Shown here: piece by piece, positions 29,155 through 34,217 of the stretch
Layout: each line of letters starts with the position of its first letter
Numbering within the stretch: position 1 is the stretch's first letter
Assembly: GCF_002283365.1 (NCBI RefSeq)
Contig: NZ_MQWD01000001.1
Coordinates: 3,292,516 to 3,326,732 of the forward strand
Source: Rubrivirga marina
Lineage (GTDB): Bacteria > Bacteroidota > Rhodothermia > Rhodothermales > Rubricoccaceae
Direction of reading: 5' to 3'
DNA: 34,217 bases
Notes under the pieces: generated by a model
Database searches by the model: none
Seen by the model: the letters and a program-made list of their open reading frames with translations, nothing else
What the model was told of the DNA's origin: nothing
Made by a program: the position numbers and the translations under genes

Positions 29155-32010
29155 CTACCGCTTCAGATAGAGGTTCCGCATCTCGAACGGCTTCGAGATG
29201 TGCTCGTCCGTGATGTCGTCGACGAACGCGATGGCCTCGCCGGTCGACTTCATCTCGGGCCCGAGCTCCTTCGTGACCTCGGGGAACTTGTCCCACGAGA
29301 AGACCGGCTCCTTGACGGCGTAGCCCACCAGCGAGCTCTCCAGCTCGCCCGCCTCGCGGAACGTCTGGAGCGTCTCGCCGAGCATCAACATGGTGCCGAT
29401 CCGGGCGATCGGGACGCCCGTCGCCTTCGCCACGAACGGGACCGTCCGCGAGGCGCGCGGGTTGGCCTCGATGACGTAGACCGTCTCCTTGCCGTCGCGC
29501 GTCTGGACCGCCAGCTGGCAGTTCATCATGCCGACGACGCCGAGCCGCTTGGCGATGTCCGCCACGTACTGGCGGATCGTGGCGACGGCCTCGTCCGAGA
29601 GGTCGTACGGCGGGAGGACGGCCGTCGAGTCGCCCGAGTGGACGCCTGCCGGCTCGATGTGCTGCATGACGCCCGCGATCCAGACCTCGTCGCCGTCGGA
29701 GAGGCAGTCGCAATCGATCTCGACGGCGTCCTCGAGGAAGAGGTCGAGCAGGATCTCGTTGTGCGGGAACAGCTTGAGGATGTTGGCGACGTACTCGGCC
29801 ACCTCGTCCTTGTTGATCGCGATCCGCATGCCCTGCCCGCCCAGGACGTAGCTCGGCCGGATCAGGATCGGGTACCCGATCCGCTCGGCGACCTCGACGG
29901 CCTCCTCGACCGTGTGCGCCATGCCGTAGGGAGGGAACGGGATCTCCAGGTCGCGGAGCACGTGCGAGAACTTGCCGCGGTCCTCGGCGAGGTCCATGTT
30001 CTCGAACGGGGTCCCGAAGATGGGCAGCCCGTGGTCGACGATGTCGCGCGCCAGCTTGAGGGCGGTCTGGCCCCCGAGCTGGAGGATGATGCCGTCCGGG
30101 TCCTCGAGGTCGATGATGTCGGCGACGCGCTCCCAGAAGACCGGCTCGAAGTACAGCTTGTCGGCGATGTCGAAGTCGGTCGAGACCGTCTCCGGGTTGC
30201 AGTTGACCATGATGGCCTCGTAGCCCATCTCGCGCGCCGCGAGGACGCCGTGGACGCACGAGTAGTCGAACTCGATGCCCTGCCCGATCCGGTTCGGCCC
30301 GGAGCCGAGGATGAGCGCCTTTTTCCGGTCGCTCCGCTCCGACTCCGACTCGCCCTGGTCGTAGGTCGAGTAGAAGTACGGCGTCTGCGCCTCGAACTCG
30401 CCCGCGCACGTGTCGACGACGCGGTACGTCGGCGTGAGCCCGAGACCGATCCGGTGCTCGCGTACCTCCGCCTCGGAGGTCTCGCAGAGGGCGGCGATCT
30501 GGACGTCCGAGAACCCGTGCTGCTTGAGCGCCAGGAGGCGGTCGCGGCCGAGATCCGCCAGCGGCGTGCCCTCGGTCGCCGTCTCCATCCGCACGAGGTC
30601 CTGGACCTGGTGGAGGAACCACGGGTCGACCTTCGTCACGTCGTGGACCTCGGCGACGGAGGCGCCGAGGCGGAAGGCGTGGCGGATGTTGAGCAGCCGG
30701 TCCCAGTACGGCTTCGCGAGCCGCTCGCGGACGACGTGACGGTCGGGGAGCTCGCCGTCGAGACCGGCGTGCCCCTGCTCCAGGCTCTGGAACGCCTTCT
30801 GGATCGACTCGGTGAACGTCCGCCCGATCGCCATCACCTCGCCGACCGCCTTCATCTGCGTCGTCAGCTCCTCGTCGACGCCCTCGAACTTGTCGAAATT
30901 CCAGCGCGGGATCTTGGTGACCACGTAGTCGAGCGCGGGCTCGAAGCAGGCGCTCGTGGTGCCCGTGACCTCGTTGGGCAGCTCGTCGAGCGTGTAGCCG
31001 ACGGCGAGCCGGGAGGCCACCTTCGCGATCGGGTAGCCCGTCGCCTTCGACGCGAGCGCCGACGACCGGCTCACGCGCGGGTTGATCTCGATCACGATCA
31101 TCCGCCCCGACGCCGGGTCGACGGCGAACTGGATGTTGCAGCCGCCCGCGAACGTCCCGATCGAGCGCATCGCCTTGATGGCCGCGTCGCGCATCCGCTG
31201 GTACTGCTGGTCGGTCAGCGTCTGCTGCGGGGCGACGGTCACCGAGTCGCCGGTGTGGACGCCCATCGGGTCGAGGTTCTCGATCGAGCAGATGATGACG
31301 ACGTTGTCCTTGGCGTCGCGCAGGAGCTCGAGCTCGTACTCCTTCCACCCGAACAGGCACTCCTCGATGAGCACCTCGTGGACCGGCGAGAGCTCGAGCC
31401 CGCGCGTCACCTTCCGGTCGAACTCGCCCTCGGTCCAGACGATGCCGCCGCCCGCGCCGCCGAGCGTGAAGCTGGGCCGGATGACGATCGGCGCGAACCC
31501 GCGGATGCCGTCGGCGCCGCCGGCCAGCTCCTGCGTGATCTCCTTGGCTTCGAGGAGCGACTTCGCCACGCGCGACCGCGCCTGGTCGATCCCGACCCGT
31601 TCCATGAGGTCGCGGAAGGCCTGCCGGTCCTCGGTCGTGTGGACGGCGTCCATGTCTACGCCGATGACGGCGATCCCCTCCTTCTCCCAGTAGCCCTCCT
31701 GTTGGAGCTGGTCGGCGAGGTTGAGCGCCGTCTGTCCGCCCATCGTCGGGAGCACGGCGTCGGGCCGCTCCTTCTCGACGATCTGCTTGATGCTCTTGGG
31801 CGTGAGCTCCTGGAGGTAGACCGCGTCCGCCGTCATGGGGTCGGTCATGATCGTGGCCGGGTTCGAGTTGACCAGGATCACGCGGTAGCCCTCGTCGCGG
31901 AGCGCGCGGGCGGCCTGCGTGCCGGAATAGTCGAACTCGCAGGCCTGCCCGATCACGATGGGGCCGGAGCCGATGAGGAGGATCGAGGAGATGTCGGTGC
32001 GCTTGGGCAT
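29155..32010 (-). CDS. carB: Carbamoyl-phosphate synthase large subunit (no MGS domain)
   Basis: 951 residues. CarB makes carbamoyl phosphate from ammonia supplied by CarA, bicarbonate and two ATP, for arginine and pyrimidine synthesis. Both ATP-grasp halves are present: [19 protein letters not shown] and [11 protein letters not shown] in the first, [18 protein letters not shown] and [11 protein letters not shown] in the second, with [13 protein letters not shown] and [12 protein letters not shown] as the grasp loops. The chain stops at EMRNLYLKR, soon after [17 protein letters not shown]. The usual ~1,070-residue enzyme continues into an MGS-like domain that binds UMP, IMP and ornithine; that domain is absent. 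Short CarB forms occur in some Bacteroidota, so this is lineage-typical rather than broken. Feedback control must then act elsewhere. Confidence 0.96.
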
Positions 32011-32013
32011 TCT

Positions 32014-32071
32014 TCGGTACGGGGTACCAGGTGCGGGGATGGGGGGCGACGTACCCGGTACCGCGTACCGA
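32014..32071 (-). promoter_or_regulatory. GGTACC-rich inverted repeat directly before carB
   Basis: The arms 32014-32028 and 32057-32071 are 15 nt long with 14 matches; the loop is 28 nt. The repeat ends 3 nt before the carB ATG, so in mRNA the stem would sit where a ribosome loads. It contains several copies of GGTAC. It could control carB translation or mark RNA processing, or be a dispersed intergenic repeat. Confidence 0.55.
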
Positions 32072-32086
32072 GCACCCGCCGGTGCT
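32071..32086 (-). other. Short hairpin at the end of the small ORF before carB
   Basis: AGCACC-CGCC-GGTGCT makes a 6-bp stem with a 4-nt loop, overlapping the stop codon of the upstream small ORF (32085) and touching the larger inverted repeat. Together the two structures fill the spacer. Confidence 0.45.
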
Positions 32087-32303
32087 AGCTGGCGCTGAAG
32101 CCGCCGACGGTCTTCTTGTCCTCCCGCTCGAGGACGACGAGGCAGGCGAACTGGGCAGGCGCCGTGGCGCCGCCGGTGCCGCCCATGGCGGACGTCGACG
32201 TGATCCGCCAGTCGTCGTTGAGGAGGGCGGTGAGCTCGTCGACGGCGTCGGTCGGGTGGGTGGGCGCGTAGTGGACGACGACGACCTTGCGTTGGGTAGC
32301 CAT
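32085..32303 (-). CDS. Small protein of unknown function in the car operon
   Basis: 72 residues: [20 protein letters not shown] then [22 protein letters not shown], an Ala/Gly/Thr stretch and [21 protein letters not shown]. The pattern of a strand, a helix with LN-x-x-W, and a last strand of the form FxCLVVLER recalls DUF4177-like small proteins, but the match is weak. It starts 8 nt after the DUF3291 gene and precedes carB by 74 nt. I cannot assign a role; its position suggests it is expressed with carbamoyl-phosphate synthase. Confidence 0.65.
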
Positions 32304-32311
32304 GGGGTGGG

Positions 32312-32770
32312 TCAGCCCGCCTCGGCGTCGAGGCCGGACGGGTCGAAGACGTGGGTGAAGGTGAAGGCGTCCGGCGTCGGACCGTGGGCCTGGAGGGATT
32401 CGAGGCGCTGCTTGGCCTCGCGTGGGGACGGGCGGTGCCCCTCGTCGACCCACCAGAGGGCGTAGTGGGGCCGGCCGAAGGTGGAGAACCACTCCTTCCG
32501 ACGCCGGACGTACTGGGCGTGGCCTGACTGGTAGGTGTAGTCGCGCAGCGCGTCGACCGAGCGCCACACGCTCAGATTGACGAGGAGGTGGCTGTCACCG
32601 AAGACCCGCCCAACGAGCCGGTTGACCTCGTCGCCCTGGAGGCGCCAGACGAACCCGGGGGACTGCTCGGCGAGTCGGTTCATGGGCTCGATGGCCCGCG
32701 CAAACTCCGACATCGTGGTGCCGTCCATGGGCCCGAGGGGGCGAGCGAGGTTGACCTGGGCGAGGTGCAT
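32312..32770 (-). CDS. DUF3291 domain protein
   Basis: 152 residues covering a whole DUF3291 domain: [72 protein letters not shown] and [16 protein letters not shown]. The fold resembles dimeric alpha/beta-barrel (ABM-like) proteins. Function unknown. Its ATG abuts the carA stop with no gap (TAG then ATG), so translation is coupled to carA. Its presence between carA and carB is unusual for a carbamoyl-phosphate synthase operon. Confidence 0.88.
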
Positions 32771-33913
32771 CTACGCGTCCTCGACGGGATCGGCAGACGG
32801 CTCGGGGACGGCGGGCTGCGCGAGCTCCCGGCCGTCCATGAGCGCGACGAACTGGTCGAACAGGTAGCGGCTGTCGTGCGGGCCGGGGCAGGCCTCCGGG
32901 TGGTACTGGACCGAGAAGCCGGGGAACCGGAGGAACTTGAGCCCCTCGACCGTCTGGTCGTTGAGGTTCCGGTGGTCCACCTCGGCGATCCCGTCGAGGC
33001 CGGCTTCCTGAACGGCGAACCCGTGGTTCTGGGTCGAGATCTCGACGTGGCCCGTCGTCAGGTTGAGGACCGGGTGGTTCGCGCCGCGGTGCCCCACCTT
33101 CATCTTGTAGACCTCGAGCCCCTCAGCGAGGGCCATGAGCTGGTGGCCGAGGCAGATCCCGAACGTCGGCGTGCCGCTCCCGATGACCTGGCGGGCGAGG
33201 TCGACCGCCTCGGGCATCGCGCGGGGGTCGCCGGGGCCGTTCGAGAAGAAGATGCCGTCGGGCTCCCAGGCCATCACGTCGTCGAACGACGTGCCGGCGG
33301 GGAACACGCGGACGGCGCAGCCGAGGTGGGCGAACGACCGGAGGATGTTCCGCTTGACGCCGTAGTCGAGGACGGCGACGCGGCGCTCGCCGCTCTCCGC
33401 GAAGTCGTACGGCTCGCCGGCGGTCACGCGGCTGGCCAGCTCGAGGCCGGCCATGCTCGGGACGGCCTTCGCCTTGGCGACGAGCGAGGCGTCGTCGAGG
33501 TCCTCCGACGAGATCACGCAGTTCATCACGCCCTGCTCGCGGATGTGGCGGACCAGCTTCCGCGTGTCGACACCGGAGATGCCGACGAGCCCGTGGCGCT
33601 CCATGTAGGCCGCGAGCGTCTCCTCCATGTCGCTGTTGGACGGGTCGCGTGAGAACTGGCGGACCACGAGGCCGGCGACGTGGGGGCGGGGCGCTTCGGT
33701 CGCCTCCTCGAAGGCGCCGTAGTTGCCGATGTGGGGGTACGTCATCAGCATGACCTGCCCGGAGTAGCTCGGGTCGGTCAGGATCTCCTGGTACCCGCTC
33801 ATCGACGTGTTGAAGCAGAGCTCGCCGGCCGTCTCGCCGACGGCGCCGACGGACTGCCCTTCGACGACGGTGCCGTCTTCGAGCGCGAGCTTGGCGGGGA
33901 GCGGAGTGGGCAT
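32771..33913 (-). CDS. carA: Carbamoyl-phosphate synthase small subunit
   Basis: A 380-residue glutamine amidotransferase subunit that supplies ammonia to CarB. The N-terminal half has FNTSMSGYQEILTDPSYSGQ and TYPHIGNYG. The C-terminal class I glutaminase has GDPRAMPEA, FGICLGHQLMALA with the nucleophile Cys, and VQYHPEA with His/Glu. All catalytic residues are intact. The ATG at 33913 is preferred: it gives MPTPLPAKLALEDGTVVEG, the family start. The same frame is open further upstream to 34036, but that would place a terminator hairpin inside the coding region. The gene heads the carA-DUF3291-small ORF-carB set and is preceded by a leader ORF and hairpin listed separately. Confidence 0.97.
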   Translation of the reverse strand: MPTPLPAKLALEDGTVVEGQSVGAVGETAGELCFNTSMSGYQEILTDPSYSGQVMLMTYPHIGNYGAFEEATEAPRPHVAGLVVRQFSRDPSNSDMEETLAAYMERHGLVGISGVDTRKLVRHIREQGVMNCVISSEDLDDASLVAKAKAVPSMAGLELASRVTAGEPYDFAESGERRVAVLDYGVKRNILRSFAHLGCAVRVFPAGTSFDDVMAWEPDGIFFSNGPGDPRAMPEAVDLARQVIGSGTPTFGICLGHQLMALAEGLEVYKMKVGHRGANHPVLNLTTGHVEISTQNHGFAVQEAGLDGIAEVDHRNLNDQTVEGLKFLRFPGFSVQYHPEACPGPHDSRYLFDQFVALMDGRELAQPAVPEPSADPVEDA

Positions 33914-33926
33914 GGGCGTGGGGTAC

Positions 33927-33955
33927 AAAAAAAGCCTTCCGAAAAACGGAAGGCT
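33927..33955 (-). terminator. Intrinsic terminator/attenuator hairpin in the carA leader
   Basis: On the minus strand AGCCTTCCG-TTTTT-CGGAAGGCT gives a perfect 9-bp stem (33947-33955 with 33933-33941) and a 5-nt loop, followed by a run of seven T. It ends 13 nt before the carA ATG, so there is no room for a promoter after it. No same-strand gene lies in the 260 nt upstream that it could serve. Confidence 0.85.
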
Positions 33956-34014
33956 CAACGGCGGCGGGGCCGTTCTTGGGAAGGCGAGGCGGTCGAAATC
34001 CGGGGGGCTTGCAT
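33955..34014 (-). CDS. Putative 19-residue Arg-rich leader peptide upstream of carA
   Basis: From the ATG at 34014 the frame reads MQAPRISTASPSQERPRRR and stops at TGA, whose last base is the first base of the terminator stem. Five of 19 residues are Arg, and four of the last five. The three final codons are CGC CGC CGT. A ribosome slowed on these codons would cover the 5' arm of the hairpin and let RNA polymerase continue into carA. This is the layout of amino-acid leader peptides, here for an enzyme that feeds arginine synthesis. It is too short to be found by ordinary gene prediction and could still be chance. Confidence 0.55.
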   Translation of the reverse strand: MQAPRISTASPSQERPRRR

Positions 34015-34217
34015 AGCGTCCGACGGCTCCGCCCAAGCTACGCAGGGCCGCGCGGCGCGGCGGGACACCGTCCCACTTTCACATGGCGTTTGCGACGCGG
34101 CCCGTTCCAGCCCCCTCGGAAGGCGTCGGGATTGATCTCTGACGGCGCGTCGCGGGCGCGTATCCTCGCCGACGCCCGTTCCGCTCCCGTGCCCGCCGCG
34201 CCGCCCCCGCTCCCCTC
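34015..34217. other. Upstream region of carA and probable divergent gene start at the right edge
   Basis: This stretch holds the proposed carA promoter and the palindrome at 34062-34074. On the plus strand TATCCTCG (34161-34168) precedes a GTG at 34189 that opens VPAAPPPLP to the window edge, possibly the start of a divergent gene. Only nine codons are visible, so the gene itself cannot be named. Nothing else is recognisable. Confidence 0.25.
34033..34040 (-). promoter_or_regulatory. Possible -7 element for the carA leader transcript
   Basis: TAGCTTGG on the minus strand fits TAnnTTTG at five of six fixed positions. Transcription would start near 34025, about 11 nt before the leader ATG. No clear -33 TTTG is visible. 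A GGGAC-ACC-GTCCC inverted repeat at 34062-34074 lies just upstream and might be an operator. Confidence 0.3.

Follow-up and report, generated by a model that had tools for sequence, protein, structure and literature searches.

The carA gene feeds both arginine and pyrimidine synthesis through their first shared step, and how bacteria balance the two supplies is a long-standing question. The classic attenuators of the trp, his and leu operons combine a short ORF, a terminator and control codons, and in the E. coli rph-pyrE attenuator the stop codon of the leader ORF, which is a full gene, lies just before the terminator. To our knowledge, the pyrBI attenuator works without an antiterminator; in the E. 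coli pyrL sequence, which we inspected, the terminator lies inside the ORF and the ORF ends 3 nt before pyrB. On the small subunit of fungal carbamoyl-phosphate synthetase, an upstream ORF encodes the arginine attenuator peptide, which stalls translation at high arginine.

According to the available sections of the cited sources, a ribosome at a stop codon closely upstream suppresses a terminator, whose efficiency drops from about 90% to less than 10% when the stop is shifted from a distance of 28 bp to one of 5 bp (PMC4824070), the pyrBI terminator works inside its 135-bp leader ORF under normal UTP (PMC4824070; PMC5021804), and pyrE expression is low in E. coli K-12 (PMC3071312). The carAB genes of Pseudomonas aeruginosa have a leader peptide, and their control by pyrimidines is said to be exerted through attenuation (cited in PMC4997734, in extract), while the Polynucleobacter carA motif RNA of the beta-proteobacteria, an extended imperfect hairpin, is described as a riboswitch candidate (PMC8632094, in extract). 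E. coli strikes the balance between arginine and pyrimidines at two promoters, and its arginine genes are said to be free of attenuation (PMC6245113, in extract). Our literature search, whose reach was papers outside subscription, found no description of a carA or argG element of the order studied here, the Rhodothermales; as far as we found, we therefore file the carA leader as a previously undescribed variant of the pyrBI/pyrE kind.

Organization of the carA leader in Rubrivirga marina

The window, i.e. the whole stretch of DNA analysed, comprises 34,217 nt of the Rubrivirga marina genome (G000). Its carA leader contains the following features.

34033..34040, minus strand: putative promoter-like box TAGCTTGG (-7/-10 element)
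33955..34014, minus strand: leader ORF of 19 codons, MQAPRISTASPSQERPRRR followed by a stop (ATG at 34014, TGA at 33957-33955)
33978..33984, minus strand: pyrimidine tract CCTTCCC, about 22 nt upstream of the terminator
33957..33974, minus strand: predicted small hairpin AACGGC/GCCGTT, directly 5' of the terminator and overlapping the Arg codons
33958..33972, minus strand: RPRRR codons CGG CCC CGC CGC CGT, the proposed arginine signal
33927..33955, minus strand: intrinsic terminator with a 9-bp stem, a T5 loop and a T7 tract; stem arms AGCCTTCCG (33955-33947) and CGGAAGGCT (33941-33933), T7 at 33933-33927
32771..33913, minus strand: carA, carbamoyl-phosphate synthase small subunit, the presumed regulated gene (ATG at 33913)

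Read along the minus strand, the TAGCTTGG box is followed by the 19-codon ORF, the 9-bp terminator, its T7 tract and, after 13 nt, carA, with the final A of the TGA stop codon forming the first base of the terminator stem, exactly to the base as an earlier note on this DNA had described it. The identity of CarA is supported by NCBIfam TIGR01368 (463.8 bits, cut-off 307.35), and a TAGCTT box is located 25-26 nt upstream of the leader ATG in G000, G002, G003, G007 and G008, all members of the window's family (f1). Because the gene upstream of carA is divergent and encodes a TonB-like protein, the terminator belongs to carA's own leader, and a terminator of an upstream gene was ruled out.

Compared with pyrBI (pyrL), this leader likewise combines a terminator that would be gated by an ORF crossing or abutting it, a pyrimidine-rich stretch before the hairpin and a gene of the pyrimidine pathway; it differs in that the gene is carA, that the ORF of G000-G002 stops at the terminator foot without crossing, and that the leader is C-rich, not U-rich. 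An ORF stop just before the terminator is shared with rph-pyrE, where, however, the ORF is a full gene and not one of 19 codons. The carAB leader of P. aeruginosa, likened here by description only, also pairs carA with a leader peptide but belongs to another phylum. The short ORF, the terminator and the candidate control codons recall the classic trp, his and leu attenuators, from which the carA leader departs by having no antiterminator signal and by control codons that lack conservation and sit at the terminator foot; within the order, it is the argG leader that comes closer to these attenuators. The Polynucleobacter motif, also found upstream of carA, is set apart by its description as an extended imperfect hairpin, and the fungal arginine attenuator peptide, although likewise an upstream ORF on the same enzyme subunit, is eukaryotic, acts on translation and stalls at high arginine.

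Conservation of the leader terminator

Taken by itself, a loose terminator scan of positions 32000-34217 is no evidence for a terminator (one found, 0.6 expected from shuffles); that it is more than chance follows from its conservation across the order. Among 114 genomes of the order 110 match carA, and 109 leaders were analysed, G009 being left out as it starts at a contig edge. A carA leader terminator, mostly of the CCTTCCC/GGGGAGG form, is present in 94 of these 109 genomes, which supports the proposal that the carA leader is a leader-terminator attenuator. The 15 genomes without one comprise all six of family f15, five of f3, one of f12 and three whose start could not be assigned (G020, G037 and G060), which were scored as misses even though G037 visibly has the terminator. 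The carA genes of f15 (L091, L074, L085, L096, L099 and L097), for which no leader terminator was detected, have a box resembling TAATTT or TAACTTT no more than about 60 nt from the ATG.

The exact terminator sequence pattern occurs a single time in the G000 genome, and a looser, strict-type pattern, searched in 18 of the 24 genomes used for pyrB and argC, was found at carA in 14 genomes and at two places elsewhere. A generic house terminator was rejected on these grounds. In 41 genus representatives, stem pairing is kept while both sides change, most clearly at positions with GC 17/AT 15, CG 35/TA 5 and GC 16/AT 8, counts that were obtained by anchoring on the 3' GG, which fixes G at two 3' positions, and that are biased towards pairing as the terminator search demanded it. 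All 41 representatives have pyrimidines at six core positions of the 5' arm, two of the six being partly set by the anchoring. MAFFT with RNAalifold gave no consensus for the terminators because the 5' arms were misaligned, and outside the terminator the leader is poorly conserved between families. Given this conservation of the terminator, its nearly carA-specific pattern and the divergent neighbour, a carA attenuator is well supported, and we regard the leader as very probably a regulator of this type, acting on transcription.

Leader ORFs that reach the terminator

An ATG-initiated ORF reaches the terminator in all nine genomes of family f1, ending at the terminator foot in six of them and crossing it in three, where it ends in overlap with the carA start. 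When the scan is limited to 75 nt this holds for 8 of 9 genomes, with a genus-weighted value of 0.94 against 0.33 in shuffles (0 of 200). The suggestion that a short ORF is placed such that its ribosome would cover the 5' arm is thereby supported. Across the order, ORFs with an ATG or GTG start and their stop codon at the foot are mildly above shuffles (0.32 against 0.20; 4 of 200). For ATG-ORFs that reach the terminator there is no excess over shuffles (0.42 against 0.36; 23 of 200), and of the ATG-ORFs that cross it 15 of 29 end close to the start of carA, a slight excess (genus-weighted 0.48 against 0.38; 9 of 200). In the window genus the leader ORF shows no coding-like substitution (2 synonymous changes among 26 changed codons); the peptide-conservation test for coding failed there and in f9 and f14 and was mixed in g40. 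Coding-like substitution was found in the leader ORFs of f11, g47 and four genomes of g35; the ORFs of f11, mostly VxGSxxGQLHFRRFRGG followed by a stop, terminate at the foot in 6 of 7 genomes.

The comparison also took in all of the 31 listed genomes that belong to the class but not to the order. Twenty-nine of them belong to families f17 and f18, and 26 entered the ORF test, with G223 (short contig end), G270 (a shorter form missed by the pattern) and G227 (no terminator) left out. A carA leader terminator is present in 26 of the 29, with the different arms AATCCGAC/GTCGGATT, and in 23 of the 26 it is crossed by an ORF whose ATG often lies some 31 nt upstream (genus-weighted 0.87 against 0.43 in shuffles; 0 of 200). 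In 21 of these 23 the crossing ORF has its stop between -15 and +14 nt relative to the carA ATG (genus-weighted 0.93 against 0.11; 0 of 500), in most of them 1-4 nt before carA, as in pyrL, and where terminator and carA are 100-248 nt apart the stop still lies beside carA in 12 of 14 genomes (0.05 in shuffles; 0 of 500). The peptide and the reading frame through the terminator vary between genera, which fits a mechanism that needs translation but no particular amino acids. The window leader and the f17/f18 leaders are alike in layout, a likeness that may reflect either homology or mere resemblance. In other classes, some other terminator-like match was found in 3 of 6 genomes.

The pyrL-like crossing ORFs, in our view the most telling hint at the mechanism, are located in most of the loci L257-L268 and L276-L291. 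In L260, L277, L281 and L287 the long leader ORFs share stretches (e.g. ..FLSKTKSFPS..) between terminator and carA, which keep the frame open, as if a repeat had been captured by the leader ORF.

These ORFs bear on the alternative that the leader is a constitutive partial terminator or a small-RNA gene, which dampens carA or yields a trans-acting RNA. The leader would indeed yield a discrete terminated RNA, and there is a precedent in P32, proposed before carA in Pseudomonas syringae (PMC4997734, in extract); an ATG-ORF that runs to the terminator throughout f1 and stays open to carA in the class relatives, together with the poor conservation of the leader outside the terminator, speaks against it, and we consider it rather improbable. 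Slightly less probable still is recognition of the CCUUCCC/GGGGAGG stem by a trans factor, an RNA-binding protein or RNA, with the ORF being incidental. The invariant pyrimidines of the 5' arm (two of the six positions partly anchored), the near carA-specificity of the strict pattern and the PyrR encoded beside pyrB would agree with such a factor, but the PyrR-like motif TCCNGNGAGG, searched as a single pattern, occurs in 0 of 94 leaders, no Rfam family (T-box or known riboswitches) matches the window or 18 leader loci at gathering score, and the class relatives have other arms with the ORF running through.

Pairing of the upstream leader with the terminator arms

Over 41 genera, no excess pairing of the upstream leader with the terminator arms, as expected for an antiterminator, was found: the genus mean z is 0.17+-0.15 for the 5' arm and 0.09+-0.12 for the 3' arm. 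The classic antiterminator design was therefore rejected for the carA leader, in agreement with the earlier description of this leader as unlike the four-segment attenuators. A partial upstream copy of the 5' arm, GCCTTCC, had been put forward as a competitor for the 3' arm; it is present in G000, where pairing between the leader and the 3' arm is stronger than in shuffles (z -2.8), but reads GCCTTCT in G001 and GCCTCAC in G002 (z -0.0 and -1.3), so as a conserved feature it was rejected.

In the mechanism that we propose, RNA polymerase would start near position 34030, yield a leader of about 100 nt and meet the terminator just before carA. A ribosome that translates the 19-codon ORF would finish at a stop codon within the terminator foot; given this position of the stop codon, the layout suits suppression of the terminator by the ribosome. 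With the ribosome close behind the polymerase the 5' arm would be covered, the hairpin would not form and carA would be transcribed, while with a ribosome that lags or has already gone transcription would terminate before carA. That the ribosome itself blocks the hairpin is, in our judgement, probable. The distance between the two would most likely be set by the polymerase, which at low CTP or UTP would slow down along the pyrimidine-rich leader and in the 5' arm with its pyrimidines, so that carA would be expressed under pyrimidine shortage; the CCTTCCC tract is a possible pyrimidine-sensitive pause site. We thus tentatively place the carA leader, at somewhat less than even confidence, among the translation-coupled attenuators without antiterminator of the E. 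coli pyrBI/pyrE kind, a placement for which we also counted that the terminator, with its neighbour divergent, serves the carA leader alone.

Arginine codons in the leader ORFs

The earlier note had read the terminal Arg codons as an arginine sensor: scarce Arg-tRNA would stall the ribosome on these codons, mask the 5' arm and let carA be read. A qualifying ORF is present in 78 of the 94 leaders, and these 78 entered the Arg comparison. Arg in the last eight codons exceeds shuffles in f1 (2.38 against 1.15; 0 of 500) and in f11 (2.86 against 0.83; 0 of 500), while the remaining families pooled are at shuffle level (276 of 500); pooling of all families gives 33 of 500 shuffles. A looser measure scores the best window of eight codons among all ORFs of a leader; by it, f1, f11 and f12 exceed shuffles (3, 5 and 11 of 200, respectively), but f3, f6, f9, f13 and f14 do not. 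For G000 alone, at least four Arg in eight codons are seen in 15.5% of leader shuffles, which is within chance. Within the window genus the ORF ends with RPRRR in G002 and with RPCCR in G001 and has no Arg codon at any position in G003, and the conserved part of the Arg codons also forms the predicted small hairpin, of which a 5-bp version (ACGGC/GCCGT) is predicted in G001 and G002 too.

Conservation of the Arg codons across the order was accordingly rejected, with none beyond f1 and f11 in the last eight codons and f12 added only by the looser test, and the conserved run of cognate codons that marks a classic Arg leader-peptide attenuator is absent from the carA leaders of the order. Comparison of the carA upstream regions, along the lines of the check that the note itself had proposed, gave a conserved hairpin and, throughout f1, an ORF, but no conserved terminal Arg codons; of its overall reading, the leader-terminator attenuator with an ORF at the 5' arm stands, and arginine sensing as a conserved property does not. 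Since the Arg excess is limited to f1 and f11, the ORF end varies in G001 and G003 and the Arg codons overlap a hairpin, arginine sensing at carA is possible in f1, as judged from these comparisons, and is not conserved.

As an explanation of the carA leader at large, the arginine-sensing peptide draws support from the Arg excess in f1 and f11 (and f12 in the best-window test), from the f11 ORFs, which mostly end at the foot and change in a coding-like way, and from the fact that no antiterminator is required. It is weakened by the families without Arg excess, by the variation within the window genus and the chance-level cluster of G000, by the double role of the Arg codons as a hairpin, and by the class relatives, where several genera do have an Arg-rich crossing frame but 7 of the 8 g52 genomes do not.

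Leaders of argG and pyrB in the same order

A leader terminator precedes argG in 17 of 20 genomes, which were 20 of the 23 argC matches; a long ORF with a common start motif lies downstream in 16 of the 17, and the two that were checked are ArgG (TIGR00032 over cut-off). These leaders carry Arg-rich ORFs, MTARPFPRRPRRRPAQPGSGDDA followed by a stop in G000 and ..SRRTRRVKPPRRRK.. or ..PVRPIRPVRRPRRPRGGG.. in other genomes, with at least four Arg in an eight-codon window in 14 of 17 and a genus mean for the best window of 4.25 against 2.47 in shuffles (0 of 200). Over 12 genera, these leaders pair with the 3' arm beyond shuffle level (z -1.23+-0.27), and the same may hold for the 5' arm (z -0.8+-0.44). 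From their sequences, the argG leaders thus appear to carry arginine attenuators of the classic type; the Arg-rich ORFs, the terminator and the arm pairing together indicate that the order uses Arg attenuation on argG and that the carA leader is built differently. The G000 argG leader is found in L196 (G000:C1:27827-31387), about 2.4-2.6 kb upstream of argC, and the other argG loci are among L184-L203.

For pyrB, no leader terminator was found within 1.5 kb upstream in 22 of 24 genomes, the exceptions being G007 (at -784) and G027 (at -140), and pyrB was rejected as a co-regulated target. In G000 the PyrR gene lies directly before pyrB (L152 891-1460, plus strand), and this pyrB is among those without a leader terminator within 1.5 kb. 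That the same order has Arg attenuation on argG, and that leader terminators precede carA and argG whereas pyrB lacks one in most genomes, counts in favour of arginine as the signal at carA; such a distribution would fit an arginine regulon better than control of the pyrBI type.

Pyrimidine content and the candidate signal

Across the order, the pyrimidine fraction of the 60 nt before the carA terminator is 0.594+-0.011, compared to 0.523+-0.015 in argG leaders, with a small gap over the last 34 nt (0.602+-0.012 against 0.559+-0.026). In f1, the 34 nt upstream of the terminator reach 0.65. The sequence after the carA terminator is also somewhat enriched (0.556), and the carA leaders of the order show no excess of long pyrimidine runs. 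In f17/f18, the last 34 nt are U/C-rich (0.646), whereas the 60 nt are not pyrimidine-rich (0.548 against 0.586 further upstream). The enrichment before the carA terminator is modest; it is consistent with, and does not prove, pyrimidine-sensitive pausing.

Weighing these data, we consider pyrimidine supply a likelier signal at the carA attenuator than arginine, which stays a live rival: pyrimidine nucleotides are our tentative choice, to which we give not quite half of our confidence, and arginine is unlikely though well worth keeping in view. The assignment to the pyrBI type leaves the Arg enrichment in f1 and f11 unexplained, and the modest pyrimidine enrichment, the weak order-wide ORF signal and the lack of a terminator in f15 count against it as well. 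An integration of both signals by the f1 terminator, through slowing of the polymerase in the pyrimidine tract and stalling of the ribosome at RPRRR, either of which would let a ribosome cover the hairpin, seems improbable to us; if true, it would be a two-signal attenuator without antiterminator that reads both end products of carbamoyl phosphate.

The whole class appears to place an ORF-gated terminator before carA, beside a separate attenuator of the arginine type on argG, and it is this pairing that makes the product sensed at carA directly testable.

Some further features of the carA surroundings were observed. A DUF3291 gene (32312-32770, minus strand) starts directly after the carA stop codon, and a run of five N (assembly gap; L004 2734-2738) lies just past the window end, between carA and the TonB-like gene. 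All nine f1 genomes have a single GTGAA motif 5' of the promoter region, in the window at about 34078-34082 (minus strand) and, where a -10-like box was found, 42-54 nt before it; the motif represents a possible DNA operator.
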